A DNA stretch of 31,383 nucleotides, from positions 1-31,383 of IMG/VR virus record IMGVR_UViG_3300025769_000506. One strand, 5' to 3'. A model generated the notes under the pieces. It was not told the origin of the DNA. It did no database searches and was given only the letters and a program-made list of their open reading frames with translations. Made by a program: the position numbers and the translations under genes. Source of the stretch: a virus. The first letter of the stretch is position 1. Each line of letters starts with the position of its first letter. Shown here in pieces: positions 19,556-31,383 of this stretch.

Positions 19556-20250
19556 ACTATTTTTTTAATCCAGTTGCCATTGTCATCAAGGACCATTGGC
19601 AATAGTTTAGGAATACCATCTATAATTATTCCACAGCCTAGTATGAATCTAGTTTTAAAATTTTTAGCATAGGCAAATGCTAGGCTCTTTTGATTTATAA
19701 GACATCCTACATTCATACCCCAGAATAAATTGTCAGGGTTTGCCCACCATGATATTAGAAACTTAGTATGGTAGTGGCCTTGTACTGTATTCATGCCCAT
19801 AGACTGTGATACTTTAAGTACATCTGCAGCCTTGCCATGTGTAAATAAACAGCGCCTACCATTAGATAAGGTAAGAACAAGATCATCTACCCATGTCCAT
19901 TTCTTTGTACCTAGAAACTCACCATAAGTTCTAAGAAACTGTCTGCTCATGCCAGACTTCAATGCCCTACGAAATACCATAGAGCTATGATTAGATTCTA
20001 CCTCTACAACTTTAGGAAACATCCACTCTAATTCTTTGACATACTCTCTAGCTATTGTCATCTCATCACCTGGAGATGCTAAGTCAGGATCATGATCGTG
20101 CATACTCATAGCATGAAAGTCTAGTAAGTCGCCAATGTTGACAACAAAGTCTGGTTTAAATTCTTTTTTAACTTCTGCAAGAAATGCAAAAGCATCTTTG
20201 TGTTGATACGGAATATGTAAGTCGCTGATAACAAGCACTCTTTTATTCAC
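19552..20250 (-). CDS. Calcineurin-like metallophosphoesterase
   Basis: A 232-residue two-metal phosphoesterase. All motifs are in order: D-L-H (D10, H12), G-D (D41), N-H (N87, H88, in S-N-H rather than G-N-H-E), H138 in F-T-H-G and G-H-Y-H (H159, H161). The substrate cannot be read from the sequence; phage members cleave phosphodiesters such as nucleic-acid ends or cyclic nucleotides. The start is GTG at 20250 with a poor Shine-Dalgarno. It is last in the leftward unit after the zinc ribbon, from which it is separated by 28 bp that contain a perfect DnaA-box sequence. Confidence 0.88.
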   Translation of the reverse strand: MNKRVLVISDLHIPYQHKDAFAFLAEVKKEFKPDFVVNIGDLLDFHAMSMHDHDPDLASPGDEMTIAREYVKELEWMFPKVVEVESNHSSMVFRRALKSGMSRQFLRTYGEFLGTKKWTWVDDLVLTLSNGRRCLFTHGKAADVLKVSQSMGMNTVQGHYHTKFLISWWANPDNLFWGMNVGCLINQKSLAFAYAKNFKTRFILGCGIIIDGIPKLLPMVLDDNGNWIKKIV

Positions 20251-20269
20251 ATTTACACTTTAACATAAG

Positions 20270-20278
20270 TTATCCACA
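20270..20278 (+). promoter_or_regulatory. Perfect DnaA-box sequence
   Basis: TTATCCACA, the consensus DnaA box, fills part of the 28-bp gap between the phosphoesterase and zinc-ribbon genes. For this base composition I would expect roughly 0.4 copies in a window of this length by chance, so one copy is suggestive only. A one-mismatch TTTTCCACA occurs at 31209-31217. Confidence 0.35.
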
Positions 20279-20482
20279 TTAATCAACAGGTTTATCATAA
20301 TCATCTTCAAAACATTTGTTGGTGCAATAAACATATTCTTGGTTGTTATGTAAAATAACTTTTAGTGATCCTTTGCAAGTTGGACAATAATAATATTCAT
20401 ATCCATCTATCTCTACAACAGAACCAACTGGTGCTTCTTGAACATAATTTTTAATTTTATATTTTGGATTATATGCTCTCAT
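20279..20482 (-). CDS. Small zinc-ribbon protein
   Basis: A 67-residue protein with two Cys pairs, C-P-T-C and C-T-N-K-C, about 18 residues apart in a Tyr-rich beta context: a single zinc ribbon. I place the start at ATG 20482, which overlaps the upstream stop as ATGA; the frame also has an ATG at 20491. Tight coupling to the PP-loop protein suggests a partner or nucleic-acid-binding subunit, but no target can be named. Confidence 0.7.
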   Translation of the reverse strand: MRAYNPKYKIKNYVQEAPVGSVVEIDGYEYYYCPTCKGSLKVILHNNQEYVYCTNKCFEDDYDKPVD

Positions 20483-21303
20483 ACTCCACACATTCCTTCA
20501 CACTCACCTGTAAACAAATCTAATTGTTCGTGTTTTTCTTTTTTTACTGTAACATTTTTTAGATCATTGTATTGATGTATGCTAACATCATAAATATCAT
20601 CTTGGAACTCGTCTGTTTCTTTGTATGCTTTTTTTACTTTTTGTTCATATTCTAATGCTTGATTAAATTCATCAGGACTATTTTCTTTTAGATCTTTCCA
20701 AAAAGAAAGACTGTGGTACGGACAAAATATACAAGCTGATCGTGGAGGTAGATTTAAATTGTTATTTGTAAACCACTGCAAACAATCTGCTCTACTTATA
20801 TTATTATCTATTAAAGGAAAAGTATGTTCGATCCATTCTACTTGTGATGGTTTCATTCTTGTTGCTTCATCAGTAGATATTCCAAGCATTAAATGTATTT
20901 GAACATTAGTTTCTTTGTTTTTTATTTTACAGTGTCGTCTTAAAAAAGTTCTAATAGGTTTAATTTTAAAATCATTAGTACATCCTCTTGGTAGAAAACC
21001 TTTTCTAATACCATTCTTAAATAAGAAAACTGGTATCGTTGATCCACCTATATATTTTTTTCCTGTAACTTTAGAAGTCCTAACTCTTATGGCTTCTTCT
21101 GCTAAATTACCTTTGGATATTCTATAAACAGGATAGGGCAGTTGTGTTTCCAGCCAATCTAGCCATTGATAAACAGCTTTAGGTTCTCCTTGTGTATCTG
21201 CAAAAACAGCAAAGTCTGGCATAGGTTTTAGCTCACCCTTAGCAAACATCATTGCTAATGTAGAACTTTGTACTCCAGCACCTAAAGATAAAACATTGAT
21301 CAT
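20479..21303 (-). CDS. PP-loop (PAPS-reductase-like) adenine nucleotide alpha-hydrolase family protein
   Basis: A 274-residue member of the phosphoadenosine phosphosulfate reductase/PP-loop superfamily. The N-terminal P-loop is the variant S-L-G-A-G-V-Q-S-S (residues 6-14), which binds and adenylates in this group. Cys 108 (R-G-C-T-N-D-F-K), the pair C191-x2-C194 in S-A-C-I-F-C-P-Y and the C-terminal C-E-G-M-C-G-V (C268, C272) are family-conserved and may hold an Fe-S cluster or zinc. True sulfate reduction is unlikely in a phage; base or tRNA thiolation or nucleotide modification is more plausible but unproven. It is coupled by ATGA overlaps to the MazG-like gene before and the zinc ribbon after it. 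Confidence 0.85.
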   Translation of the reverse strand: MINVLSLGAGVQSSTLAMMFAKGELKPMPDFAVFADTQGEPKAVYQWLDWLETQLPYPVYRISKGNLAEEAIRVRTSKVTGKKYIGGSTIPVFLFKNGIRKGFLPRGCTNDFKIKPIRTFLRRHCKIKNKETNVQIHLMLGISTDEATRMKPSQVEWIEHTFPLIDNNISRADCLQWFTNNNLNLPPRSACIFCPYHSLSFWKDLKENSPDEFNQALEYEQKVKKAYKETDEFQDDIYDVSIHQYNDLKNVTVKKEKHEQLDLFTGECEGMCGV

Positions 21304-21533
21304 ATTATATTTGCTTTCTTCAAAACTCTTCTAACCTTTTCTAAATAGACTATCATATCCCATGCTTCTTCTTGCACATCATCTATCCATTTGCTAAAAG
21401 GTTTGTTTGCCATTTCCATATCTACTTTGTATTTTGTAAGACCTTCATCTGATCTGTTAGACATTCGTTGTAGTATATCTCTTACCATAGGATCTTTAGT
21501 TGCGACAAAAGGTCTTATAATTTTCTTTCCCAT
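21300..21533 (-). CDS. MazG-like small nucleotide pyrophosphohydrolase-type protein
   Basis: A 77-residue all-helical protein. The segment R-S-D-E-G-L-T-K-Y-K-V (27-37) followed by W-I-D-D-V-Q-E-E-A-W-D-M-I-V-Y-L (49-64) matches the small phage version of the all-alpha NTP pyrophosphatase fold; E55, E56 and D59 would bind Mg. It might hydrolyse dNTPs or ppGpp-like nucleotides, or be only a remnant. The ATG has no Shine-Dalgarno, unlike almost all its neighbours; an in-frame stop just upstream excludes a longer start, and a hairpin-forming spacer precedes it. Confidence 0.6.
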   Translation of the reverse strand: MGKKIIRPFVATKDPMVRDILQRMSNRSDEGLTKYKVDMEMANKPFSKWIDDVQEEAWDMIVYLEKVRRVLKKANII

Positions 21534-21549
21534 ATGTTACAATATACCT

Positions 21550-21601
21550 ATAGATTGACAACGAAGAAAGCAAACGAGAGTGGCACTACTGCTCAATCTA
21601 T
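21550..21601 (-). repeat. 9-bp inverted repeat enclosing 34 bp in the only sizeable gap of the leftward operon
   Basis: ATAGATTGA (21550-21558) and TCAATCTAT (21593-21601) are perfect reverse complements and enclose a 34-base loop without coding potential. In the leftward mRNA this folds between the nuclease stop and the Shine-Dalgarno-less MazG-like gene. It could be an mRNA control or processing element. No U-run follows, so it is not an obvious terminator. Confidence 0.5.
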
Positions 21602-21603
21602 TC

Positions 21604-22503
21604 TTAAAATGCTGTGTTTTGATAATAACTGCAAAATTTGTTAACCCTACAATAGTTTTCACATTTGACATCTTGGCCCTTCCTCTCTATGACAGTAGCA
21701 TTTACACCATATTTTAAATGATTGTCCTCTATCCATTTCATAGCCTCCTTTCTGCTAGGTAAAACTCTAGCTGCTGTCTTTCTATTTTTTTTCATAACAG
21801 CAAATGTAGTTTCTTTTCTCCATCTTTCCTCTGGAGTGCATAACATAAGATCTTCACCTTGTATCTCTGCTAGTTGATGTAATCTAATTCTTTGTTTTAC
21901 ATACTTGTCTTGTTCTTCAGGTGTCCATTTATTTATAGGTATCATAACAACTTGTTTTCTAGGATAGTTATCAGATGTCATAACTTTCATCTTAGACCAA
22001 TCACGTAAGATAGCCATTATATACATTTTTTTTACAGCTAATTCTTTTCCATTTTTATTTCTAAGTTCTGTGTCATTCCATCTAATTAACCAATCTAATA
22101 CATTTAGTTGTCTTTCCCAATCAGACTTACCTTTCTCTAATGCTTCAAGAGCAGACCATGCTGATGTAACCTTGAAGTCAATAAGATCCCCTGATGCTGT
22201 GAGTAAATCAAATTGACCACTAAGTTTCCAACCATCTATATCTACAAACAATCTGCGCTCTGATATGTCATCATCAGTTACAGCTCGTTCTATGATATGA
22301 TGAACAGATGATCCGATAAGAGTAAATATCTTATCAGATACATCTTCTTCTAATTCATCCCAGTGTCTTTGCTCTAGTACTCGTACCCTAGGTGGTGCTA
22401 TAAGTCTAGTTACAGAGATATCTGAACCCTGTGAATCATACGGATCATTCTCTACTGCTCGTACAATAGTTTCTGGGAGCTTTGCATGATTAGTTAGTTT
22501 CAT
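21604..22503 (-). CDS. PD-(D/E)XK nuclease (RecB/Cas4-like exonuclease) with Cys cluster
   Basis: A 299-residue nuclease. The core motifs are H68-H69/E72 (G-S-S-V-H-H-I-I-E), D99 in S-G-Q-F-D-L-L, D109-x-K111 in I-D-F-K-V-T and Q132 in R-Q-L-N-V-L-D-W. Four cysteines, C222 (L-C-T-P-E-E-R-W) and C281-x3-C285-x5-C291 at the end, are placed as in phage relatives of Cas4/AddB-type nucleases and may hold an Fe-S cluster. With the SSB-like protein just upstream (TAATG overlap), it probably resects double-strand ends for recombination or replication restart. Confidence 0.85.
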   Translation of the reverse strand: MKLTNHAKLPETIVRAVENDPYDSQGSDISVTRLIAPPRVRVLEQRHWDELEEDVSDKIFTLIGSSVHHIIERAVTDDDISERRLFVDIDGWKLSGQFDLLTASGDLIDFKVTSAWSALEALEKGKSDWERQLNVLDWLIRWNDTELRNKNGKELAVKKMYIMAILRDWSKMKVMTSDNYPRKQVVMIPINKWTPEEQDKYVKQRIRLHQLAEIQGEDLMLCTPEERWRKETTFAVMKKNRKTAARVLPSRKEAMKWIEDNHLKYGVNATVIERKGQDVKCENYCRVNKFCSYYQNTAF

Positions 22504-23099
22504 TAGAAGGGTACATCTCCTATATCAGCACCATTATTTTCATCACCTAAGTCTGTATTCATGTTCTCCAGCTCTTTAGATCTTAGGATGATATTTCTAA
22601 TACCCTCTGAGAGAGCCATAAAGGCCTCATTTGAGCCGTTTTCAAAGTCATCTATACTAAACTGTAGGTTTTCATGAAACTGTGGCTCTAGGGTATCGTT
22701 TTTGGGAAGTGGCATTACAGAGCCAACCTTCGTATTGCCATTCCTACCTTCCACAATATTCAGCATACAAGGTACTCCAAGCAATGCAGTAATATCAAAC
22801 TGCTGCTTTTCTAGCTCTGTAAATGCTCTACCTCTCCATGCTGTAAGATCTTTACCAAGATTAGATTTCTCATGCAAAGATAAAGTATAAAATTTACTGA
22901 TTAACAATGGCTCACCACTGTTACTTAATTCACTAGGTACTTCCCATGATACAAGGATTTGTCTTTTCCAAGATACTTCCCCTTGATATTCACTTCGTTG
23001 TGTACCAAGATCAATCATTCTGACACATCTTGCTTTGTGTACCCCTGTGGATACTCCTACAAATTTATCAGAACTACTTGTTGTTGCTATAATAGACAT
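22503..23099 (-). CDS. Phage ssDNA-binding protein
   Basis: A 198-residue protein of the phage SSB-like family that sits beside recombination nucleases. Recognisable blocks are M-S-I-I-A-T-T-S-S-S, G-V-H-K-A-R-C-V-R-M-I-D-L-G-T-Q, S-W-E-V-P-S-E, Y-T-L-S-L-H-E-K-S-N-L and W-R-G-R-A-F-T. The C-terminus is acidic and ends D-I-G-D-V-P-F, the tip by which SSBs recruit partner proteins. AGGAGG lies 8 bases before the ATG. It is the first gene of the leftward unit, behind an extended -10 promoter overlapped by a candidate operator. Confidence 0.85.
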   Translation of the reverse strand: MSIIATTSSSDKFVGVSTGVHKARCVRMIDLGTQRSEYQGEVSWKRQILVSWEVPSELSNSGEPLLISKFYTLSLHEKSNLGKDLTAWRGRAFTELEKQQFDITALLGVPCMLNIVEGRNGNTKVGSVMPLPKNDTLEPQFHENLQFSIDDFENGSNEAFMALSEGIRNIILRSKELENMNTDLGDENNGADIGDVPF

Positions 23100-23113
23100 A
23101 TGGTCTACCTCCT

Positions 23114-23127
23114 TTTTGTTAACTAAA
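23114..23127. promoter_or_regulatory. Candidate operator (TTTTGTTAACTAAA palindrome)
   Basis: A 14-bp palindrome around GTTAAC with one mismatched pair, placed on the expected start of the leftward SSB transcript. Its left part, TTTTGTTAA, recurs exactly at 23166-23174 inside the rightward promoter. Repressor sites shared by two divergent promoters fit the Cro-like gene next door. Confidence 0.45.
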
Positions 23128-23135
23128 GTATATCA
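23127..23135 (-). promoter_or_regulatory. Extended -10 promoter for the SSB operon
   Basis: On the minus strand TGA-TATACT (5 of 6 to TATAAT plus the TGN extension), with a weak TTGCAT 15 bp upstream. Transcription would start near 23120 and give a 20-base leader with the AGGAGG of the SSB gene. Confidence 0.5.
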
Positions 23136-23160
23136 TAAAAATATAATATGCAAAATTATA

Positions 23161-23188
23161 TTTACTTTTGTTAAATCGAATATATAAT
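23161..23188 (+). promoter_or_regulatory. Promoter of the Cro-like gene, implying a leaderless mRNA
   Basis: TTTACT (23161-23166), 16 bp, TATAAT (23183-23188). The start point 7 bases on is 23195, directly before the ATG at 23196, and no Shine-Dalgarno precedes that ATG. A leaderless transcript is therefore expected. The TTTTGTTAA site at 23166-23174 sits in the spacer, so its occupancy would block the promoter. Confidence 0.55.
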
Positions 23189-23195
23189 CATATAC

Positions 23196-23408
23196 ATGGA
23201 TCTATACGAACTAGCTAAAAAAAGAAAACAAGAGATTATAGCTACTTATGGTGGCAGAAAATTATCTAAAATACTTAAAATATCGCATCCAGCAGTGTCA
23301 AAATGGGAAGTAATACCCCCTTTTCGTGCATTTCAGATAGCACAGCTAGGTGACTTTAAGCTAGAGTATATAAGACCTGATCTTAATTTTACCCTTGAAA
23401 ACACTTAG
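23196..23408 (+). CDS. Cro/YdaS-like HTH transcription regulator
   Basis: A 70-residue DNA-binding protein. The helix-turn-helix is near residues 19-40 (G-R-K-L-S-K-I-L-K-I-S-H-P-A-V-S-K-W), followed by I-P-P-F-R-A-F-Q-I-A-Q-L and a C-terminal Y-I-R-P-D-L: the pattern of the YdaS/Cro family. It is divergent from the SSB operon and its promoter overlaps candidate operators, so it probably regulates both directions and itself. No CI-like partner or integrase is in the window, so lysogeny is not supported by what is visible. Confidence 0.8.
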   Translation: MDLYELAKKRKQEIIATYGGRKLSKILKISHPAVSKWEVIPPFRAFQIAQLGDFKLEYIRPDLNFTLENT

Positions 23409-23452
23409 TGTGAGGTGGCATCTCCTTGTCTATCTTCCTCGCTACCTCACAC
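23408..23452 (+). repeat. Long imperfect hairpin after the regulator gene
   Basis: GTGTGAGGTGGC (23408-23419) pairs with GCTACCTCACAC (23441-23452): a 12-bp stem with one G-U and a 21-base pyrimidine-rich loop. It begins at the last base of the regulator stop. No U-tract follows on either strand, so intrinsic termination is doubtful; as DNA it could extrude as a cruciform or be an origin element. Confidence 0.6.
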
Positions 23453-23461
23453 GCTTATAGC

Positions 23462-23507
23462 AGTGCCATGCGACTGCCATCAGTCTGCCATCGTTCTGCC
23501 AATGGCA
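23462..23507 (+). repeat. Four TGCCA(T/A) iterons at exact 11-bp spacing, ending in a palindrome
   Basis: TGCCAT starts at 23464, 23475 and 23486 and TGCCAA at 23497, each 11 bp apart, so all sites face one side of the helix. The last one is the left arm of the perfect palindrome TGCCA-A-TGGCA (23497-23507). The 11-bp period rules out coding. Directly repeated, helically phased sites beside a replication gene pair are typical iterons for an initiator; a regulator-binding array is the alternative. Confidence 0.7.
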
Positions 23508-23508
23508 A

Positions 23509-23569
23509 AAGATAGCTCTTCACCTTCACCTTCAACTTCACCTACATCTTCAACTTCAAACAAGATAGC
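23509..23569 (+). repeat. Seven CTTCAM hexamers flanked by AAGATAGC direct repeats
   Basis: 23518-23559 are seven contiguous 6-bp units: CTTCAC, CTTCAC, CTTCAA, CTTCAC, CTACAT, CTTCAA, CTTCAA. The array is bounded by two exact AAGATAGC copies (23509-23516 and 23562-23569). One strand is all pyrimidine-plus-A, so the region is strongly strand-asymmetric. It may be part of the origin (unwinding or primer site) or an enhancer for the promoter that follows. Confidence 0.6.
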
Positions 23570-23571
23570 CC

Positions 23572-23600
23572 TTGACAGCATACTAGGCATTAGCTAGAAT
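23572..23600 (+). promoter_or_regulatory. Near-consensus sigma70 promoter for DUF1376/primase genes
   Basis: TTGACA (23572-23577), exactly 17 bp, TAGAAT (23595-23600): 11 of 12 consensus bases at ideal spacing, the best sigma70 promoter in the window. Transcription would start about 23607, 15 bases before the ATG at 23622. It follows the repeat arrays directly, so an initiator bound there could control its own synthesis. Confidence 0.8.
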
Positions 23601-23621
23601 GTTAATTGAGGTTAAGGTAGC

Positions 23622-23984
23622 ATGAGAAAATCATCTAAGATAGAACAAAGTCCAGCTTTTCAATTTTATGCAAGTGATTGGGTAAGTAGTCCAGGTAGAT
23701 TAAAGATGTCATTAGAAGAACAAGGTGCATACATTCTTTTATATTGTCATTGTTGGGTAGGTTTTCAAATACCTTTTGATTATGAAGTCCTAGCTAGAAT
23801 GTGTAACTGTACTACTGACAAGATCCGTAAGATGTGGCCTAACATTCAACATATGTTTGAAGTAAAGGATGATCACATACATTGTATACAAGCAGAGGAA
23901 GAAAGATACGAGCAAGAGCTGAACAGAAAAAGAAAATCAAAAGCAGGAAAGAAAGGTGCAAAGGCTAGGTGGAACAGTGAGTAA
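23622..23984 (+). CDS. DUF1376 protein (putative replication initiator / DNA-binding)
   Basis: A 120-residue protein of the DUF1376 family, common at replication loci of phages and prophages. Its core is S-P-A-F-Q-F-Y-A-S-D-W (residues 10-20), M-S-L-E-E-Q-G-A-Y-I-L-L-Y-C-H-C-W and I-P-F-D-Y-E-V-L-A-R-M, a winged-helix-like fold. The C-terminus is very basic (R-K-R-K-S-K-A-G-K-K-G-A-K-A-R) and should bind DNA. Placed just after the iterons and overlapping the primase gene, it is the best candidate for the iteron-binding initiator; that role is inferred. Confidence 0.8.
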   Translation: MRKSSKIEQSPAFQFYASDWVSSPGRLKMSLEEQGAYILLYCHCWVGFQIPFDYEVLARMCNCTTDKIRKMWPNIQHMFEVKDDHIHCIQAEEERYEQELNRKRKSKAGKKGAKARWNSE

Positions 23985-24807
23985 TAGTTTTGGTGGAGTA
24001 CCCTATTACACAAACTGTTCTACCTATTTTGAATTCTTATCTATGTTTGGAGAAGAACATACCTTCCAAACATTTTGTGATAAGGGCAAAGACAAATCGC
24101 TTATCAAGCAACTACATGGAACAGTAAAGCAACACTTTCATGAGTTAGCAGATCTCAATAAGCGAGGTGCTGGTGTGTTCTTTACAGTTAACGAAACCGA
24201 TCTCCTTGGCAGGACAACAAAGCACATACAAAAAGTGAGAGCTGTATTTATTGACTTAGACGGAATCCCCTTGCCATCTGAGTTTGAATTGCAGCCTCAC
24301 TTAATTGTCAATACAAGTCCAGGTAAGTATCATTGTTACTGGCTAGTATCTGATATGCCACTAGAAAGTTTTACATTATATCAAGAGGCACTTGCTAATA
24401 AGTATAACTCAGATCCTAAAGTAAAAGATTTACCTAGAGTGATGAGAGTTGCTGGATTTTTTCACAACAAAAATGCCAGATACCCCATAAAGATACAAAA
24501 GCAATTACGATTACCAGCATACACAAGAGAAGAATTGAAACAAAAACTCTCTCTGCAAAGGCCAACGAAGCAAAAGATATCCTATGAAAAAACATATGTA
24601 GTAGATTATAACGGAAAATTTAATTATGGTGCAAGTAAAGGCGACAGACATGAGCAACTTGTAAGAATGTTAGTAGCCATAAAGAAACGAGGCGAGAGCT
24701 ACGACTATGCTAGAGAAGAAGCACTAAAGTTCGCAAGGGCTTGTGATCCCCCTGAGAACAATAGAGAAGTTATGTTTCAATTAAATGATATATGGAGAAG
24801 ATATTAG
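23956..24807 (+). CDS. RepB-like archaeo-eukaryotic primase (AEP) for replication
   Basis: A 283-residue primase-type protein. The AEP signs are G-V-F-F-T-V-N-E-T-D (73-82), the metal-binding F-I-D-L-D-G with D100 and D102, S-P-G-K-Y-H-C-Y-W with H126, and D-L-P-R-V-M-R-V-A-G-F-F-H-N-K (158-172). The C-terminal 70 residues (G-D-R-H-E-Q-L..R-E-E-A..F-A-R) are helical, as in phage primases with a PriCT-like tail. It presumably makes primers at the adjacent origin. The start is GTG 23956 (AGGA upstream) or, equally plausible, GTG 23977 (AGGTGG upstream, 8-bp overlap with the DUF1376 stop). No DNA polymerase gene is visible, so host polymerase is expected. Confidence 0.82.
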   Translation: MQRLGGTVSNSFGGVPYYTNCSTYFEFLSMFGEEHTFQTFCDKGKDKSLIKQLHGTVKQHFHELADLNKRGAGVFFTVNETDLLGRTTKHIQKVRAVFIDLDGIPLPSEFELQPHLIVNTSPGKYHCYWLVSDMPLESFTLYQEALANKYNSDPKVKDLPRVMRVAGFFHNKNARYPIKIQKQLRLPAYTREELKQKLSLQRPTKQKISYEKTYVVDYNGKFNYGASKGDRHEQLVRMLVAIKKRGESYDYAREEALKFARACDPPENNREVMFQLNDIWRRY

Positions 24808-24818
24808 ATTAAATCTAA
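24804..24818. terminator. Perfect 7-1-7 palindrome at converging stops
   Basis: TTAGATT-A-AATCTAA contains the stop codons of both converging genes (primase and ATP-cone protein) and is followed rightward by the T-rich TTTATCTTTTT. It is AT-only apart from one G-C pair per arm, so only a weak bidirectional terminator is likely. Confidence 0.35.
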
Positions 24819-25034
24819 TTTATCTTTTTCGTGTAGGATAAGATACTTTTCTACCATGTCTTTTAGGTTTTCATGGTTAGGATAAAACTCAAAGTATCTT
24901 TGTCTTATTTCGTCTTTGACTTTATTTACTATCTTCCATGTTACTTCCTGATCATTAACACATCTGTTAATAGATTTAAATAATTTTTCTGTATCAAGTT
25001 CTTGTATTACACCTGATCTTTTTACTATATCCAT
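24804..25034 (-). CDS. Stand-alone ATP-cone domain protein
   Basis: A 76-residue protein consisting of little more than an ATP-cone: I-V-K-R-S-G-V-I-Q-E-L-D-T-E-K-L-F-K-S-I-N-R-C, then W-K-I-V-N-K-V-K-D-E-I-R and a final helix. ATP-cones are allosteric nucleotide sensors on ribonucleotide reductases and NrdR. Here no reductase or NrdR zinc ribbon is attached. I start at ATG 25034, with GGAGG 8 bases upstream; the longer open frame to 25097 lies inside the nuclease gene. It is last in the leftward early operon. It could bind the host reductase or sense dATP/ATP on its own. Confidence 0.72.
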   Translation of the reverse strand: MDIVKRSGVIQELDTEKLFKSINRCVNDQEVTWKIVNKVKDEIRQRYFEFYPNHENLKDMVEKYLILHEKDKLDLI

Positions 25035-25333
25035 AGTTCGTCCTCCGTTTCTAATAACTGTAAAGTTTCTTTTAGTAATTGTCTTTGTGATCCCCACTTA
25101 GCTGAAAACCCTTTTGATGAATAATGAAATGCTTCTTTGCCTATTCTATGGTGCATAACACATAAAGGAATAACTTCAAAATGACTAGACCTTTGCCCCA
25201 TGCCAGTCATCTCTCTTATGTGATGTAACTCAGCAGGAACAAGAGGGTTACCTTCCTTTCTGCATATAATGCAGCCAAGTCTAGCTACCTTGTCCATGTG
25301 ATCTTTTTCCTTTTTAGTTTTTGTACGAGCCAT
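25025..25333 (-). CDS. HNH nuclease, Ref-like (RecA-dependent nuclease family)
   Basis: A 102-residue HNH nuclease. C21-x2-C24 (G-C-I-I-C), H37-H38 (E-L-H-H-I) and H61-H62 (C-V-M-H-H-R) are the zinc and catalytic residues. The layout with F-E-V-I-P-L-C and the G-F-S-A-K-W-G-S-Q-R-Q-L tail is that of the phage Ref-like family, which cuts DNA at RecA filaments in P1. I start at ATG 25333 (overlap of 20 bp with the previous gene); an ATG at 25354 is less likely. It may act with the SSB/nuclease pair in recombination. Confidence 0.78.
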   Translation of the reverse strand: MARTKTKKEKDHMDKVARLGCIICRKEGNPLVPAELHHIREMTGMGQRSSHFEVIPLCVMHHRIGKEAFHYSSKGFSAKWGSQRQLLKETLQLLETEDELWI

Positions 25334-25604
25334 AGTCGAAATCTCTTGTATCAAATGTTTTTGTACCTATTTTTCTAATTAACTTTATGTTTCTTGTAGG
25401 TATTACAATTTCATCACCAACATCATCACTTGTAAATGACATTACGAAGATATGTCTATCATCATCTTTGTGAATTAGATAACCTTCTGTAAAGCATATA
25501 CTAAGTTGATCTTCTACAGCTTCCTCTCGTGGTTTCCAATCTGCATAACTTGCAGCATCTTCCCACCAACATTCGTATTTAGATACAGTAAATTTATGTG
25601 CCAT
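25314..25604 (-). CDS. Conserved hypothetical phage protein
   Basis: A 96-residue acidic protein. The central beta part, Q-L-S-I-C-F-T-E-G-Y-L-I-H-K-D-D-D-R-H-I-F-V-M-S-F, resembles a small phage domain of unknown function (pattern C-x-T-x-G-Y-L-I) seen near replication genes. No catalytic residues are evident. It overlaps genes on both sides. Confidence 0.6.
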   Translation of the reverse strand: MAHKFTVSKYECWWEDAASYADWKPREEAVEDQLSICFTEGYLIHKDDDRHIFVMSFTSDDVGDEIVIPTRNIKLIRKIGTKTFDTRDFDYGSYKN

Positions 25605-25944
25605 ATGATTTCATCTCTACTGTTTGTCCAATACTTTTTGTTTTCCACATTTCAAAATCTGTTTTAAAGACAGTCCATTGTGATTGCCAAAAGATCTTTA
25701 ACCTTTCTGCTTCTCTTAACTGCTTTAAATATTCTGTATATTCAGGATCAGTAAGTGCCTCTCTCTCTTGAGCATTAACACTTTGTACCTTACCATTAGA
25801 TTGTACCATATACTTTTTCATCAATCTAGCTAACACTACCTTACGATTATGCTCTAAAAATGTATGTTCTGCTAGTGCTTCAGCATACTTATCAATCGCT
25901 TCCCTCATTTTGTGGATCTTGAATTCCTGTAGTTGCTCTGACAT
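25594..25944 (-). CDS. Conserved helical phage protein
   Basis: A 116-residue nearly all-helical protein with the phrase R-K-V-V-L-A-R-L-M-K-K-Y, then Q-E-R-E-A-L-T-D-P-E-Y-T-E-Y-L-K-Q-L-R-E-A-E and a final W-x-x-F-K-T-D-F-E-M-W-K-T-K-S. This pattern recurs in phage replication regions; its function is unknown. The ATG at 25944 has GGAGAG 6 bases upstream, although it overlaps the helicase end by 53 bp. Confidence 0.6.
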   Translation of the reverse strand: MSEQLQEFKIHKMREAIDKYAEALAEHTFLEHNRKVVLARLMKKYMVQSNGKVQSVNAQEREALTDPEYTEYLKQLREAERLKIFWQSQWTVFKTDFEMWKTKSIGQTVEMKSYGT

Positions 25945-27424
25945 ATTTTTCTCTCCTTTTTGCTTTCTTAATTAGCAAATGTTTTATAAAATTTTTTACC
26001 TCTTCCGTAGGTGGTTTTAGTCCTATCTTCTTTGTATGTGGGAAATGACCATACTTTTCTTTAAAAGTCCAGTCAGCCCAGCCAGGTTTAAAACCTTTTG
26101 ACTTACCATAATGTTTAAGCTGAGAGTAGAAGATCTGTTTCTCTATAGCTGTTGGCTCAGTCTTTTCTTTCTTTAGTTCAACAAGTCTACCTTCTTTGAT
26201 CAACAACTCAGTTTCTTTTTTTGTTGGTACAAATGCACAGTTAGGACACTCAGGGTTATCCTTTGTTGGTTTGTAAACTGTATCACATTTGATACAAGTA
26301 AATGGTTGTTTATCTATTGGTTGCTCCTCTTTTGGTACAAGATCAATCTTATCTTCTGTAAGTATCCATGCTGGTGTATCTTCTGGAAACCCATGCTGAT
26401 ATACAGAGCCACTATGGTCTATGATTAGTGTATCTTTTTTATTTGGTGCTGGTCGCAGCGACCTTCCTACCATTTGTAGATACATAACATAAGATCTTGT
26501 TGGTCTTGCTATAATGACACATGATACCTTTGGTTGATCCCATCCTTCTGTTAATACTTGACAGTTGCATAAGACCTTTATTTTGCCTGTATCAAGATCG
26601 TTTAGTTGTTGTTCCCTTTCAAGTTCAGGCATAACTCCGTCTATGTGTCCAGCAGCTATACCAAAATTATTAAACATCCTTGCGATCTGTTGACTATGAT
26701 TTATAGATGAAGCAAAGACAACAGTAGGCCTATCTTCCCCATGCAGTTGCCAATGTGTAATAATATCACCAACAAGTTTAGGTGTATTCATTTTCTTATC
26801 TAAGGATCTTTTTTCGTAATCACCAGCAACTATTTTTATGCCTTTAAGATCTGGTACTGTTGGTGCTAGTATTCTATTTGGTACAAGATAACCTTGATCA
26901 ATTAGTTCTTGTATAGAAGCAGCCTCAACAAGTTCATCATAGATGTTGCCAAGTCCACGACCATCTGATCTGCATGGTGTAGCTGTAAGGCCAACGACAT
27001 AAGCATTAGGATACTCATTGATAAGTTCTTGAAAAGAATTAGATACTGATCTATGTGCCTCATCAAGTATGACAAGGTCTGCTTGTGGTTTAACAAAATC
27101 ATCTCTATCTTTCCGTGCCGTAAAAGTCTGGACACTGGCAACTTGTGCCTTTGCTTCTTCCGTTTCACTCTTATTTGCCATCAATACACCATGATTAACT
27201 CTAAAGTCAGCTAATTTTCTGGAGCATTGCATAACAAGTTCTCTTCTATGAGCTACAAATAGGCATGACTTGCCCTTACTAAGTGCTTGATCAATCATAG
27301 AAGAGGCAATAACAGTCTTACCCGATCCAGTTGGAGCGACTAACAAGACATTCTTTTTACCTTTTGCAAAGTAATTACGAATCTTATCAATAGCTGATCT
27401 TTGATAATCTCTAAGTTCTGGCAT
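25892..27424 (-). CDS. DEAH-box superfamily 2 helicase with zinc ribbon
   Basis: A 510-residue SF2 helicase. Motifs: A-P-T-G-S-G-K-T (Walker A, 30-37), D-E-A-H (121-124), T-A-T-P (147-150), V-L-T-E-G-W-D-Q-P and Q-M-V-G-R-S-L-R-P (317-325, arginine fingers). A zinc ribbon follows with C377, C380, C393 and C396, then a Lys-rich tail. This is the phage replication/recombination helicase type rather than a DnaB. The start is ATG 27424, which overlaps the upstream stop as TAATG; an in-frame TTG at 27436 is less likely. Together with the primase it forms the visible replication machinery. Confidence 0.9.
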   Translation of the reverse strand: MPELRDYQRSAIDKIRNYFAKGKKNVLLVAPTGSGKTVIASSMIDQALSKGKSCLFVAHRRELVMQCSRKLADFRVNHGVLMANKSETEEAKAQVASVQTFTARKDRDDFVKPQADLVILDEAHRSVSNSFQELINEYPNAYVVGLTATPCRSDGRGLGNIYDELVEAASIQELIDQGYLVPNRILAPTVPDLKGIKIVAGDYEKRSLDKKMNTPKLVGDIITHWQLHGEDRPTVVFASSINHSQQIARMFNNFGIAAGHIDGVMPELEREQQLNDLDTGKIKVLCNCQVLTEGWDQPKVSCVIIARPTRSYVMYLQMVGRSLRPAPNKKDTLIIDHSGSVYQHGFPEDTPAWILTEDKIDLVPKEEQPIDKQPFTCIKCDTVYKPTKDNPECPNCAFVPTKKETELLIKEGRLVELKKEKTEPTAIEKQIFYSQLKHYGKSKGFKPGWADWTFKEKYGHFPHTKKIGLKPPTEEVKNFIKHLLIKKAKRREKYVRATTGIQDPQNEGSD

Positions 27425-27765
27425 TACAATTGACAACTATTAATTAGATTATAATCTTCGAACATCAGATATGATAATTGTGATATAAGATTAGGTGCTG
27501 GATCTTCAAGATTCATAGTAACTCCAACACACTCAGTTTTTCTTTCATACTTAAAACCTGTTGCTATTGCTACTTGTCCACTTATGTTAATAGGTGTAAT
27601 CCTAGTTTCACCCTCACTAAAATTATCATCATTGATCTGTAAGTAATAGAAAGCAATGTGTTTATATTGCCCACTATTAGATATTCTTTTGATCACATAA
27701 AAAATAGTATCTTTTGGTTTAACTATCTCCTGGATCATGTTAGTTAAATGTTTTTCTTCTATCAT
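27424..27765 (-). CDS. Conserved phage hypothetical protein (S-x-SG-type family)
   Basis: A 113-residue alpha/beta protein. I-F-Y-V-I-K-R-I-S-N-S-G-Q-Y-K-H-I-A-F-Y and I-S-G-Q-V-A-I-A-T-G-F-K-Y, ending in N-L-I-S-Q-L-S-Y-L-M-F, look like a divergent member of a widespread unnamed phage family whose usual form carries a V-S-x-S-G-M-x-R motif. The function is unknown. It is coupled to the helicase by TAATG and to the preceding gene by a 4-bp overlap. Confidence 0.6.
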   Translation of the reverse strand: MIEEKHLTNMIQEIVKPKDTIFYVIKRISNSGQYKHIAFYYLQINDDNFSEGETRITPINISGQVAIATGFKYERKTECVGVTMNLEDPAPNLISQLSYLMFEDYNLINSCQL

Positions 27766-28148
27766 AATTCCACCTCAAATTCACACTTGCCTTTCATCTC
27801 GATACATTCTTTTATCTTTAATCCTAATGTTAGCTTTTTATAGTCATTGATAACTACATCTGCATAATGCTCAGATATGCCAAGATAAGTGGCTAGTTCT
27901 TTTTTTGTAAAGTTTGGCCTAGCTTGTATAAATTTATTTAAAAGTCTTTTATAGATCCTTAAACGATTATTAAGCATGTCAATCCCATCTTCAACCTTTC
28001 GAAGATCTTCTAATCGATATTCATACTTTATTAATCTAGGCCTTATTCCAGATACTCCAAAATAATCTGGCTCGTTACTAAGGTAACTAGTCGTTCCCTC
28101 AATATCCCCGTAATATTCTTTTTCAAATACTGATCTTTGTTTAATCAT
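27762..28148 (-). CDS. HTH-containing hypothetical protein
   Basis: A 128-residue basic-acidic mixed protein. Residues about 84-108 form a plausible helix-turn-helix (F-T-K-K-E-L-A-T-Y-L-G-I-S-E-H-Y-A-D-V-V-I-N-D-Y), preceded by a long amphipathic helix with Arg. It may be a DNA-binding regulator or a replication accessory protein. I use ATG 28148, overlapping the upstream stop as ATGA with GGGAG 5 bases before; ATG 28160 would place the start inside that Shine-Dalgarno. Confidence 0.6.
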   Translation of the reverse strand: MIKQRSVFEKEYYGDIEGTTSYLSNEPDYFGVSGIRPRLIKYEYRLEDLRKVEDGIDMLNNRLRIYKRLLNKFIQARPNFTKKELATYLGISEHYADVVINDYKKLTLGLKIKECIEMKGKCEFEVEL

Positions 28149-28387
28149 AATAACTCCCATCCATAATCAATTTTTAATCTTACTTTCTGCTCGTCCGTTC
28201 CGTACTCTAATAAATGCTCACACATCCATTCGTCAGTTGTTTCCTTAATCATCAATCTTTCAAGTTCAGCTAAGATCTCGTTGATATCCATTTCTTTAAT
28301 TTGTCTATCAACTTCTTGTCTTATTAACTTACGAGTTTTTAAATACTCATCATATTTTTTTCTATTCTCTTCATCACTTACATTCAT
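28145..28387 (-). CDS. Small hypothetical helical protein
   Basis: An 80-residue Glu/Lys-rich helical protein, unrecognised. The ATG at 28387 is chosen because GGAGG lies 8 bases upstream; the longer open frame to 28447 runs through another gene. It is ATGA-coupled to the HTH protein. Confidence 0.6.
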   Translation of the reverse strand: MNVSDEENRKKYDEYLKTRKLIRQEVDRQIKEMDINEILAELERLMIKETTDEWMCEHLLEYGTDEQKVRLKIDYGWELL

Positions 28388-28535
28388 ATTTATCACCTCC
28401 CTTGATCCCATAGGCATAAACTCCCATGTCATTAATTGCATATTCATTTAACATATCAACCCAATCATATATTGTGTCATACCATTGAATTTCTATGCCT
28501 TCCGTTGTTTCTACTTGTATATAATATTTACTCAT
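28374..28535 (-). CDS. Small hypothetical protein (53 aa)
   Basis: A 53-residue Tyr/Asp-rich protein (starts M-S-K-Y-Y-I-Q-V-E-T-T-E-G, includes Y-D-W-V-D-M-L-N-E-Y), unrecognised. The frame is open further upstream to 28694, but that part is the shadow of the next gene. The ATG at 28535 lies 5 bases inside the preceding stop, with GGGAG upstream. Confidence 0.55.
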   Translation of the reverse strand: MSKYYIQVETTEGIEIQWYDTIYDWVDMLNEYAINDMGVYAYGIKGGDKYECK

Positions 28536-28704
28536 CATCAAGATCTCCCTCGATATCGTATTCATGCCAATCTGGCTCATGACTGTATTGCTCATGCTCC
28601 AGATCTTCACAGGCCATAATCCATGAATCTTTAAAATCATAGCCTTCTTCCATGTACTGCTCAGCCCTTGATTCAATAAATGAATCGTTTTCATGTTTAC
28701 TCAT
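28528..28704 (-). CDS. Very acidic 58-residue protein (possible DNA mimic)
   Basis: A gene under 60 codons with an ideal GGAGG 8 bases before ATG 28704. I count 21 Asp/Glu against 3 Lys/Arg in 58 residues. Early, tiny, strongly acidic phage proteins include DNA mimics such as Ocr and other anti-defence factors, but no homology is visible; the function is a guess. Confidence 0.6.
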   Translation of the reverse strand: MSKHENDSFIESRAEQYMEEGYDFKDSWIMACEDLEHEQYSHEPDWHEYDIEGDLDDE

Positions 28705-28706
28705 TA

Positions 28707-28892
28707 TTATTTTCCTCCATTTTTTTTGTCTAGTTCTTTTTGAATAGCTTCATTAATCGCTATTATAATTTGATTCTTAACTAGATCGTCTAAGATCTCA
28801 TCATGATATAGAAAAAAATCTTTTTCTATTCCGTTGACACTTGATCTAGCTACAAAATCAAATTTATAACTAATTTGTATATCGTCATTCAT
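28707..28892 (-). CDS. Small hypothetical protein (61 aa)
   Basis: A 61-residue acidic protein with beta then helix, unrecognised. It has the leader GGAGGATAGACAATG, identical over 15 bases to that of the next gene upstream in the operon (28907-29179). Confidence 0.6.
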   Translation of the reverse strand: MNDDIQISYKFDFVARSSVNGIEKDFFLYHDEILDDLVKNQIIIAINEAIQKELDKKNGGK

Positions 28893-28906
28893 TGTCTATC
28901 CTCCTC

Positions 28907-29179
28907 TTAATAATTTCTATAAGTTCTAATTATTGATTGATTGTCTGTAACATCTTCCCATATAACATAATCTAAACCATGTTTTTTTAAGGTGGTTAAA
29001 TATGTCCCCATATCAACATCCTCTTCTAAATATATATCTTTTCCATTGGGATCTCTATACGACCAGCTTGTGATCTTATCTTCAATTTTTAATTGTTTTA
29101 AATCCCATAAAGACACCTTCAACCAAGCATGGCCTGGATCAGCATAAAGTGTTAAGTGTTGTGTTTTATTATCTTGCAT
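28907..29179 (-). CDS. Conserved small phage protein (Y-x-DPGHxWLKV family)
   Basis: A 90-residue protein with a distinctive pattern, Y-A-D-P-G-H-A-W-L-K-V..I-T-S-W-S-Y-R..I-Y-L-E-E-D-V-D-M and a C-terminal I-I-R-T-Y-R, that recurs in phage and plasmid early regions. No function is established. It has GGAGG 7 bases before the ATG. Confidence 0.7.
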   Translation of the reverse strand: MQDNKTQHLTLYADPGHAWLKVSLWDLKQLKIEDKITSWSYRDPNGKDIYLEEDVDMGTYLTTLKKHGLDYVIWEDVTDNQSIIRTYRNY

Positions 29180-29193
29180 TGTCTATCCTCCAT

Positions 29194-29481
29194 TTAAAAA
29201 TTTTGTATTATAAAACCTTCGTCGAATTCGATAACAGTTGTATTATCCCTTAAATCATCAAGGGTATTTATGTTATCGTATTGGTTCAAGATCTCATCAA
29301 GTGTCTTATATTCTGAATAATCACACCTAATGGCAACATGGTCAAATTCAATCTGGCCTATATCTTCCTCTAACTCCGTTAGATATTCATATAAAGCACT
29401 AGCTCCGTTATATGTAAAACTAGCATATTCATCCCTTGTTAATGTATCTATAAATTCACTTTCATATACTTGTTGTATCAT
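29194..29481 (-). CDS. Conserved small phage protein (F-T/S-Y-x-G-x-x-A-L-Y-E-Y-L family)
   Basis: A 95-residue very acidic protein. F-T-Y-N-G-A-S-A-L-Y-E-Y-L-T-E-L-E-E-D-I-G-Q-I-E-F-D-x-V-A-I-R-C-D-Y-S-E-Y matches a frequent small early phage family of unknown function. Acidic composition and early position make an anti-defence role possible. It is ATGA-coupled to the preceding gene. Confidence 0.7.
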   Translation of the reverse strand: MIQQVYESEFIDTLTRDEYASFTYNGASALYEYLTELEEDIGQIEFDHVAIRCDYSEYKTLDEILNQYDNINTLDDLRDNTTVIEFDEGFIIQNF

Positions 29482-29699
29482 TGTTTAATTACCTCCATAA
29501 CATAATTGCAATTTCTATATTCATGGTTTATTAAATCATCCTCCATACATGATCCAGCCATACCATAAACATTATAAGGGATTTTACCCCCTACGATCTC
29601 TTCAGCTTCCCAATTGTCATCAGTAAATGACACTTCATAAAATGGTTTTTTTGTTTTAATTCCATTTTTAACTATTCTATAAAATTTAACTGTTAACAT
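29478..29699 (-). CDS. Small hypothetical protein (73 aa)
   Basis: A 73-residue protein starting with a beta hairpin rich in Lys/Tyr and ending with an acidic Cys-containing segment (G-S-C-M-E-D-D..R-N-C-N-Y). It is unrecognised. AGGAGG lies 7 bases before the ATG. A TTAAC-TAA-GTTAA inverted repeat lies just upstream. Confidence 0.55.
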   Translation of the reverse strand: MLTVKFYRIVKNGIKTKKPFYEVSFTDDNWEAEEIVGGKIPYNVYGMAGSCMEDDLINHEYRNCNYVMEVIKQ

Positions 29700-29721
29700 T
29701 TATCTTCCTCCTATAGTATAT

Positions 29722-29736
29722 ATTAACTAAGTTAAT
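29722..29736. promoter_or_regulatory. Inverted repeat ATTAAC-TAA-GTTAAT (candidate operator)
   Basis: A perfect 6-3-6 palindrome in the 56-bp gap upstream of the 73-residue gene. Similar TTAAC/GTTAA pairs occur at 31317-31330, and GTTAACTAA occurs at the SSB promoter. They may be binding sites of one regulator; AT-rich background weakens this. Confidence 0.35.
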
Positions 29737-29755
29737 TATAAAATCAACTCTTAAA

Positions 29756-29935
29756 TTAATTTTCGTGATAATCTGCAGGATCATATAATTTTTCTCCGTC
29801 CCAACTATCGATAATATCGTTTATTTCATCAAGGTCTTTACTTCTCACATAATCCAAAAAAACATCTATTTGATATTCTAAATATTTTATTTTAGCTTTC
29901 GCCTCTTCTAATTCCTTTTTTATATTATCGTTCAT
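29756..29935 (-). CDS. Short hypothetical protein (59 aa)
   Basis: A 59-residue acidic helical protein (starts M-N-D-N-I-K-K-E-L-E-E-A-K, ends D-P-A-D-Y-H-E-N), a coiled coil in its first half. GGAGG lies 9 bases before ATG 29935. Unrecognised. Confidence 0.6.
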   Translation of the reverse strand: MNDNIKKELEEAKAKIKYLEYQIDVFLDYVRSKDLDEINDIIDSWDGEKLYDPADYHEN

Positions 29936-30089
29936 TTAATACAACCTCCTTAATATAATCGTCTAACTTTACAATTTCTTCTAAATTATAATAATATTTT
30001 ATAATGCCAATTCTAAAAACTGACTGATCATTTAGATCGATTTTATAAAGTTTTAAAATTTTGTTTCTTAACTCTTCGTATTTAGTCAA
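29925..30089 (-). CDS. Short hypothetical protein (54 aa, TTG start)
   Basis: A 54-residue Lys/Tyr/Leu-rich protein (I-L-K-L-Y-K-I-D-L-N-D..I-I-K-Y-Y-Y-N-L-E-E). TTG at 30089 follows AGGAGG by 9 bases and overlaps the previous stop; its own end overlaps the next start by 11 bp. The tight packing with no other frame explaining this stretch supports it. Unrecognised. Confidence 0.5.
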   Translation of the reverse strand: MTKYEELRNKILKLYKIDLNDQSVFRIGIIKYYYNLEEIVKLDDYIKEVVLNER

Positions 30090-30405
30090 CGGGTTTAACC
30101 TCCTTATAAAGTTTATATTTAAATTTATCTCTTAATATTATATTTATTTTACCTTCTAATAATTTCATAAAATGGCTTAAAGTTTCCGTACTTATTTCTC
30201 CGTCTTTCGTCCAATACTCTAACAATCTTTCTTTAGTTTCAAAATTGCCGTTTTTAAAATCTTCATTAATACAAGTTTCAAAATCATCTATGATCCCTTC
30301 TACATCTATATAATTTAAAAACCATTCCATATTCGCAAATGCTGGACAATCATCTTCCAGCAAATATTTACGAAGTTCGTGGCATTTGTCTTCATCTCTA
30401 ATCAT
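30082..30405 (-). CDS. Hypothetical acidic protein
   Basis: A 107-residue helical acidic protein with two Cys near the N-terminal half (D-D-C-P-A-F, F-E-T-C-I-N), unrecognised. ATG overlaps the upstream stop by 8 bp and has GGAGG 6 bases before it. Confidence 0.6.
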   Translation of the reverse strand: MIRDEDKCHELRKYLLEDDCPAFANMEWFLNYIDVEGIIDDFETCINEDFKNGNFETKERLLEYWTKDGEISTETLSHFMKLLEGKINIILRDKFKYKLYKEVKPVD

Positions 30406-30694
30406 TTCTTACCTCCATATATTCCCTTAATAAACTATTGTCCGTATCTTGTAATATTTCATTCAAGATTACAGAATCACTACTATCTAAAATATGTCGT
30501 GACATTATAACAATATTTTTTAAAATACATGAGTCGCCGTCTCCCCATAAAATATCATCGTCTTCTAAATCAATAGCAAAAACATTCATATAATCATTTG
30601 TTGCTTCGTCAAATGGTATAAAATCATCTTCTGAATCAAGCATATATTGTAAGCTTGATATTGTAGTTTCAATTAATTTTTTATCTTTTATCAT
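30398..30694 (-). CDS. Hypothetical strongly acidic protein
   Basis: A 98-residue protein with 24 Asp/Glu and about 7 Lys/Arg by my count, including D-L-E-D-D-D-I-L-W-G-D-G-D. Unrecognised. ATGA coupling to the first gene of the operon and GGAGG upstream support it. It is a candidate early takeover or anti-defence factor by composition only. Confidence 0.6.
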   Translation of the reverse strand: MIKDKKLIETTISSLQYMLDSEDDFIPFDEATNDYMNVFAIDLEDDDILWGDGDSCILKNIVIMSRHILDSSDSVILNEILQDTDNSLLREYMEVRND

Positions 30695-30894
30695 TCTAAA
30701 CCTCCGTTTACTTTTATTTCTGCTTTTAACGAATACAATAGTTTATAAAATTCTTTTAATCTATCGTCATTAAATCCCGTTTCTTGATCCTCTAATTCTT
30801 TAGGACCAACAGCAACGGACCACTCTTCCAACAAATCAAATAAATTATCTATATTATCAATGTTGTTAAAATATTCTTTTAATCTATCTTCCAT
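30691..30894 (-). CDS. First gene of the leftward early operon, hypothetical acidic protein
   Basis: A 67-residue acidic helical protein (M-E-D-R-L-K-E-Y-F-N-N-I-D-N-I-D-N-L-F-D-L-L-E-E-W), unrecognised. ATG 30894 is preferred, with GGAGG 8 bases upstream; the TTG at 30909 lies before that site. It is the first gene after the right-end non-coding region and therefore likely among the earliest expressed. Confidence 0.6.
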   Translation of the reverse strand: MEDRLKEYFNNIDNIDNLFDLLEEWSVAVGPKELEDQETGFNDDRLKEFYKLLYSLKAEIKVNGGLE

Positions 30895-30922
30895 AATAAT
30901 AACCTCCAAGCTATTTTATTTA

Positions 30923-30951
30923 ATATTACATGAATTCTAAAATAAATGCAA
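30923..30951 (-). promoter_or_regulatory. Possible promoter of the leftward early operon
   Basis: Minus strand TTGCAT (30946-30951), 17 bp, TAATAT (30923-30928), about 10 bases before the Shine-Dalgarno of the first gene. Both boxes are imperfect and the region is so AT-rich that several other pairs could be drawn, so this is only the best of several. Confidence 0.3.
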
Positions 30952-31003
30952 TAGTTAATTTTATAATTTATTTATTTTTTTTTCCATTGATAAAACTTTA
31001 GTA

Positions 31004-31012
31004 TGATATAAT
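31004..31012 (+). promoter_or_regulatory. Rightward extended -10 promoter (possible late promoter)
   Basis: TGA-TATAAT, a perfect extended -10, with TTGATA 14 bp upstream (too close for a normal -35). It points right, toward the terminase/portal side, and has the same form as the capsid-leader element at 2014. Confidence 0.4.
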
Positions 31013-31150
31013 TATATAAGATAGATTCTTATTATATTTATTACTAAACAAGATAAATAAAAACTTTAGATGAACGGCCGTAATAATCTTGTAAAAATTT
31101 AAGACAATAATGAAGTTTTACTACAGTTCAATATAAAACATTTAGTTGTT

Positions 31151-31190
31151 GATCCAGAAATTTATTTTCTGATCCAAAAATTTATTTTCT
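31151..31190 (+). repeat. Two 20-bp tandem repeats
   Basis: GATCCAGAAATTTATTTTCT and GATCCAAAAATTTATTTTCT are adjacent and differ at one base; a partial third unit (GATTCA) follows at 31191. Twenty base pairs is about two helical turns, as for phased protein sites. Likely a terminase, replication or regulator binding element. Confidence 0.8.
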
Positions 31191-31239
31191 GATTCACAAA
31201 AAATATGGTTTTCCACACTCACACCTTCGCAAATCTGCA

Positions 31240-31247
31240 GGGGGGGG
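31240..31247 (+). other. G8 homopolymer tract
   Basis: Eight consecutive G in DNA of roughly one-third GC, in CTGCAGGGGGGGGACACC. Chance occurrence is well under one per window at this composition. It may mark a cos cleavage region or a structural barrier; sequencing or assembly effects at homopolymers cannot be excluded. Confidence 0.5.
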
Positions 31248-31316
31248 ACACCAAAACGGCTTGGTCGACTATATATATATGGATTAGTTCCCACAGTGGT
31301 AGGGTATTTTGATGTA

Positions 31317-31330
31317 TTAACATAAGTTAA
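31317..31330. promoter_or_regulatory. Inverted repeat TTAAC-ATAA-GTTAA
   Basis: Perfect 5-4-5 palindrome near the window end, matching in arm sequence the repeat at 29722-29736. Possible operator for the rightward unit that begins beyond the window. Confidence 0.35.
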
Positions 31331-31383
31331 GGTGTTCATTGTTGTTGCATATACAAGATAAATGAGTTAGAATGGTTAATATG

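Follow-up and report, generated by a model that had tools for sequence, protein, structure and literature searches.

A conserved iteron and hexamer-array element as a candidate replication origin of Baldr-like pelagiphages

An element of ~105 bp at positions 23464-23567 of the DNA analysed here is probably a theta-type, iteron-based replication origin of a Baldr-like pelagiphage. The DNA, referred to below as the window, is an IMG/VR virus record of 31,383 bases, and the element consists of regularly spaced half-sites followed by a hexamer array, upstream of genes for a DUF1376 protein and a primase. That this core is real, conserved and functional DNA we state with high confidence; what binds it, that it is unwound and primed, and that it serves as an origin are what we infer from its build and its neighbours. 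The features of the region are as follows.

22503-23099, minus strand: divergent gene (phrog_862), the first of a leftward block and syntenic in relatives
23196-23408, plus strand: Cro-like regulator gene (Pfam P22_Cro, E 2e-10)
23408-23452, plus strand: hairpin, a terminator-like 3' end of the Cro-like gene, outside the origin core
23464-23567: candidate origin core
23464-23502, plus strand: iterons, TGCCA half-sites on an 11-bp grid (starts 23464, 23475, 23486 and 23497)
23497-23507: palindrome TGCCAATGGCA at the iteron/array boundary, holding the last TGCCA
23513-23517, plus strand: TAGCT, the junction of palindrome and array; a CCC/CCCC cluster in most relatives
23518-23559, plus strand: hexamer array of seven CTnCAn units, with no G on the top strand
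23560-23567, plus strand: conserved end motif ACAAGATA
23572-23600, plus strand: sigma-70 promoter TTGACA-17-TAGAAT, the best match in 20000-31383 (11/12)
23602-23615: candidate operator TTAATTGAGGTTAA of the TTAAC-N4-GTTAA type, distinct from the iterons
23622-23984, plus strand: DUF1376 protein, candidate initiator with a winged helix (Pfam DUF1376; PHROG 'primosomal protein')
23956-24807, plus strand: archaeo-eukaryotic-type primase (RepB_primase; PF16793, E 7e-12)
25892-27436, minus strand: SF2 helicase, found after the primase in most relatives but moved and inverted here

The virion genes of the window (connector, capsid, tail and tail-fibre proteins, compared with PHROG families) are podovirus-like, and a first-pass annotation of the sequence had rightly called the virion T7-like as far as the capsid, connector and tail genes are concerned. 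The sole cultured relative found was Pelagibacter phage EXVC032P Baldr (OQ414636.1; host HTCC1062), a complete relative with a 39.5-kb circle, the DUF1376 protein and primase of which are 64% and 58% identical to those of the window. The family was gathered from viral contigs by three protein searches and three DNA-pattern searches; conservation statistics were taken from 29 non-redundant lineages, and 79 relatives were checked via their DUF1376 gene, the core being scored upstream of it. Absence of the repeats from relatives that keep the genes had been named as evidence against the element, and the core proved to be present upstream of DUF1376 in all 79 of the IMG/VR relatives checked (74 by automatic test, L351 and L359 by eye, and L391, L397 and L405 on closer inspection; a recount again gave 79), as well as in cultured Baldr. 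Viewed from the core, 67 of the 69 distinct detected cores with sufficient downstream sequence precede DUF1376, the other two being plain microsatellites. No such core was seen upstream of the genes in the distant DUF1376/primase relatives L069, L070, L071, L081, L131, L132 and L182.

The order in relatives is Cro-like gene, 11-bp TGCYA/TRGCA half-sites, boundary half-site, CCC cluster, hexamer array, ACAAGATA, TTGACA promoter, DUF1376, primase and helicase. In every tested relative whose sequence extends far enough, the core is preceded by a Cro-like gene. Insertions of other genes, whether on the DUF1376 side of the core or on the side of the Cro-like gene, leave it unbroken. The helicase is inverted with respect to the usual DUF1376-primase-helicase order in the window and in L003-L006, and L042 and L091 are arranged otherwise. 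In L043, the interval that separates the Cro-like gene from the iterons contains what by eye seems a tRNA-like sequence, ~180 to 100 bases ahead of the array.

Four TGCCA(T/A) sites at exact 11-bp steps, the last of them inside a palindrome, had been reported for the window and are borne out by the sequence. Four in-register 5-mers at a period of 11 were reached by 0 of 1000 dinucleotide-preserving shuffles of the 213 bp, with periods of 8-20 allowed, and the 11-bp TGCYA grid is unique within the window, save for one isolated pair. The earlier suggestion that alignment might reveal conserved spacing also held, in that the grid is retained across the 29 non-redundant lineages, in which TGCYA starts cluster at -20, -31, -42 and -52/-53 relative to CCTTC/array. 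Several direct repeats at helical-turn spacing, one mark of an iteron origin, are found both in the window and in these lineages. The boundary half-site reads TTTTGCYAATGGCAAA or ...ATGCGATTT across relatives, and the right half of the palindrome is TGCGATTT in some lineages.

The hexamer array had been described as seven CTTCAM hexamers; seven units are indeed present but the fifth is CTACAT, so that only six fit the formula and the description was a small overstatement. Seven in-register 5-mers at a period of 6 were likewise reached by 0 of 1000 dinucleotide-preserving shuffles of the 213 bp (periods 4-8 allowed). Among 205 hexamers from the 29 lineages, C is found at the first position in 203, T at the second in 205, C at the fourth in 205 and A at the fifth in 200; these four positions are thus nearly invariant, positions 3 and 6 vary freely, and 1.5% of array bases are G. 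The array varies in length across relatives mostly in steps of 6, the distance from a fixed point to CAAGAT being mostly 43, 49 or 55, with 44 or 50 in some lineages and 54 in one, and CAAGAT itself closes the array in every relative for which enough sequence is available. Exact AAGATAGC repeats had been proposed to bound the array. Both copies exist in the window, at 23509-23516 and 23562-23569, but the left one is not conserved, most relatives having TATCCCC or ATAGCCC in its place, and we have therefore rejected the repeats as array borders and regard their pairing as a local coincidence. The array is neither a weak duplex nor AT-rich (-1.28 kcal/mol per step compared with a regional mean of -1.24), and in some relatives (L138 and L062) a stretch just past the array, on the promoter side, ranks among the least stable. 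Elsewhere, L397 at about 665-820 (IMGVR_UViG_3300023192_000365) and L405 upstream of DUF1376 (3300006900_000004) have the hexamers replaced by (GTAA)n of similar length; the iterons of both are of a GCGAT type with 11-bp spacing, and extra genes, DNA methyltransferase-like by eye, are inserted before DUF1376.

Two explanations of the array dispense with a function in replication. A neutral microsatellite would account for copy number that shifts by whole units, and comparable microsatellites do occur in unrelated plasmids and phages: the three matches inspected elsewhere (two plasmids and one Vibrio phage) were hexamer microsatellites or within-gene repeats without iterons, and 54 of 71 arrays of unrelated viral contigs lie inside long ORFs. 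Slippage, however, would homogenise all six positions, rather than leave 1, 2, 4 and 5 fixed and 3 and 6 free over 29 lineages, and the flanks, namely palindrome/CCC and ACAAGATA, are fixed as well, making this account highly improbable. The array might instead belong to a small coding sequence, rich in Ser, Pro and Thr or in Leu and His, given that an ATG lies in the boundary half-site, that a frame is open through the array in most lineages and that a Baldr CDS, WDQ27616.1, is annotated there. Yet lineages do not agree on which frame is open, some having the ATG at -16 (frame 2) and others at -15 (frame 0), and throughout them the same four positions of the hexamer are invariant; in the frame nCA.nCT it is the third codon positions that are fixed, the opposite of a coding sequence. 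Because the frame switches between lineages and the hexamer positions do not, we rejected the coding explanation, which we consider extremely improbable. As hexamer invariance holds whichever reading frame is open, what is conserved is, judged from the aligned sequences, DNA and not protein. The annotated start of WDQ27616.1 (L138 7633-8004), which spans the hexamer array, is probably wrong.

A hairpin with a 12-bp stem had also been counted as part of the origin. It is present, with arms at 23408-23419 and 23441-23452 (12 nt, 92% Watson-Crick complementary with one G-T pair) and a 21-nt loop, and its folding energy of -20.7 kcal/mol as RNA (z -4.9) or -9.9 as DNA (z -4.0) is equalled by no shuffle. 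The sequence of the stem varies among relatives with pairing retained. In the relatives with an extra gene between the Cro-like gene and the iterons (L024, L033, L037, L041, L043 and L066), a GC-rich hairpin is found directly behind the Cro-like gene, and in L023, L030-L039, L117 and L123, in which the iterons follow the Cro-like gene, no comparable hairpin was seen. Since the hairpin keeps to the Cro-like gene and not to the iterons, we take it for the terminator-like 3' end of that gene rather than a component of the origin, and in the window it would be a weak intrinsic terminator, as no U-run follows it. An ssi-like or origin hairpin was rejected for the same reason, the hairpin being tied to the Cro-like gene and missing in several lineages.

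The TTGACA-17-TAGAAT promoter was found where it had been reported, and the promoter is conserved across relatives, with a TTGACA-type match in 26 of the 29 lineages at 2-41 nt past the array end. The DUF1376 promoter is enriched for a TTAAC-N4-GTTAA motif (mean 8.6 of 10 compared with 6.6 for shuffled sequences), which scores weakly upstream of the Cro-like gene (7.8 compared with 7.0) and is not enriched in the iterons (6.2 compared with 6.5). Near the DUF1376 promoter it is probably a separate candidate operator of the Cro-like protein; the spacing of its TTAA elements also recalls CtrA sites.

These elements raise the alternative that the region is concerned with transcriptional control only, with the half-sites serving as operators of the Cro-like or another regulator, the array as an activation or spacer sequence for the promoter of the replication operon, and the origin located elsewhere. 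In every case the unit closes with a TTGACA-type promoter and stands behind a Cro-like gene, and an 11-bp spacing would also suit cooperative repressors. However, the motif enriched at the promoter, and weakly so upstream of the Cro-like gene, is not the iteron motif, so that iterons acting as operators of the Cro-like protein are disfavoured; the variable distance from array end to -35 is unlike that of a phased activator site; and a strand-asymmetric CTnCAn array would be an atypical operator. We therefore consider control of transcription alone to be unlikely. Repeated binding sites could also build a packaging (pac) or partition site, and parallels exist, in that phage P1 pac has hexamer elements and plasmid parC has 11-bp repeats. 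Against packaging, the Baldr terminase gene is ~10 kb away (3.2-4.6 kb compared with 32.3 kb on the 39.5-kb circle); against partition, no ParA/ParM-like gene is annotated; and the linkage of the core to DUF1376 in all relatives speaks against both, leaving such a site very improbable.

The proteins encoded next to the core are compatible with replication initiation. The DUF1376 protein (120 amino acids, AlphaFold pLDDT 87) is predicted to form a winged helix with a long C-terminal helix, and the nearest PDB folds are N-domains of RepA/Rep initiators (4pql, 5kbj, 4pt7 and 4pta; Z 6.9-7.7, rmsd 2.7-3.2 over ~80 residues). With ~15% identity and Z below 8 this is a middling match, and a sequence search of the PDB with DUF1376 gave nothing significant and no match to solved initiators, so that the model is suggestive only of kinship in fold to plasmid RepA initiators. 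The resemblance lies in the predicted winged helix, which aligns best with these RepA-type structures, whereas the phage protein is distinguished by its small size and the lack of a sequence-level match. The primase profile matches the RSF1010 RepB' structures 3h20 and 3h25 with E about 5e-6, and motif residues D100, D102 and H126 are invariant and D158 nearly so; by this profile evidence the primase is homologous to RSF1010 RepB'. RSF1010 oriV has iterons, and the phage primase belongs to the same family as RepB' (PF16793), but the phage core has a hexamer array instead of a conserved ssi hairpin, and no match to the RepA helicase or RepC was found among the window proteins scanned.

Initiators are loaded from duplex sites onto neighbouring repeats in several known systems. 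RctB acts at V. cholerae ori2 on six iterons and then on single-stranded ATCA repeats (PMC11711613), TrfA at RK2 oriV on iterons and then on 13-mers (PMC4980987), and the bacterial basal unwinding system consists of DnaA boxes and DnaA-trios (PMC8287927). By analogy with RctB, TrfA and DnaA at their origins, we infer that the duplex sites of the core load an initiator onto the adjacent array as a single strand. Like ori2 and RK2 oriV, the core sets regular duplex sites beside short one-strand direct repeats, with a candidate initiator gene adjoining. It differs in its 11-bp grid of near-palindromic half-sites, its CTnCAn array that is not AT-rich, its lack of DnaA boxes and its location in a phage genome, and in that DUF1376 has no sequence-level match to solved initiators. 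With the DnaA-trio system it shares duplex sites, a short GC spacer and repeats in triplet register, CTn being the complement of the trio 3'-GAn-5', but alternate triplets of the array are CAn, without the conserved middle adenine. A run of at least 3 consecutive 3'-NAN-5' triplets is therefore not found, CTn and CAn alternating, nor is a DnaA box within 16 bp of the array: boxes (TTATCCACA, at most 2 mismatches) are not enriched in the 260 bp of the 29 lineages (23 observed compared with 31 in shuffled sequences).

In the mechanism that we propose, the half-sites would be bound by an initiator of the phage, most likely the winged-helix DUF1376 protein expressed from the promoter next to the core; with a spacing of 11 bp, the sites would share one face of the helix. 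The initiator complex would spread from the palindrome into the CTnCAn array, where it would hold on to one of the parted strands with a register of 6 nt (2 x 3 nt) and so keep the duplex open. The RepB'-like primase could then synthesise a primer on the strand thus exposed; NTG triplets, GTG included, abound in the bottom strand of the array, and RepB' has been proposed to start at GTG (PMC4434180). The primer would be extended by the host replicase, which we invoke because the complete relative, Baldr, has no gene annotated as a DNA polymerase. Transcription from TTGACA-TAGAAT would yield initiator and primase and may aid opening, and would be governed by the Cro-like regulator through its own operator near the start site.

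The reading of the core as an origin draws on its linkage to DUF1376, the 11-bp grid, the invariance of CTnCAn, array lengths in sixes, the RepB'-like primase, the RepA-like predicted fold, the PHROG label 'primosomal protein' and the lack of an annotated polymerase in Baldr. It is weakened by a silent skew, an array that is not AT-rich, the lack of DnaA-box enrichment, the (GTAA)n of L397/L405 and the middling RepA fold match, and slippage could give lengths in sixes. A GC-skew analysis, proposed earlier as a check, lent no support, as skew in the window follows gene direction, and at four-fold sites of Baldr no consistent switch was seen. Of the earlier formula of iterons plus initiator plus primase, a unit conserved in 79/79 relatives thus stands, with an RSF1010-homologous primase and a RepA-like predicted fold, while the hairpin and the paired AAGATAGC repeats are dropped.

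More tentatively, the CTnCAn array may be a single-strand loading element with a 6-nt (paired triplet) register for a non-DnaA phage initiator, an independently evolved counterpart of the DnaA-trio that would be open to replacement by a different repeat, such as the (GTAA)n of one lineage; we regard this as possible but doubtful. No published account of such an element was found, and no described replication origin for SAR11 phages, in the literature searched, which left subscription journals mostly outside. In the ocean, phages that infect SAR11 rank with the most abundant. With a conserved element this short, and with Baldr in culture on HTCC1062, experiments can directly address where such phages begin replication. 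An array of hexamers that lacks both AT-richness and the DnaA-trio pattern would widen the current view of origin opening. Apart from the replication region, the window carries at 20479-21303 (minus strand) a phosphoadenosine phosphosulfate reductase-like gene (phrog_424) that may be an auxiliary metabolic gene.
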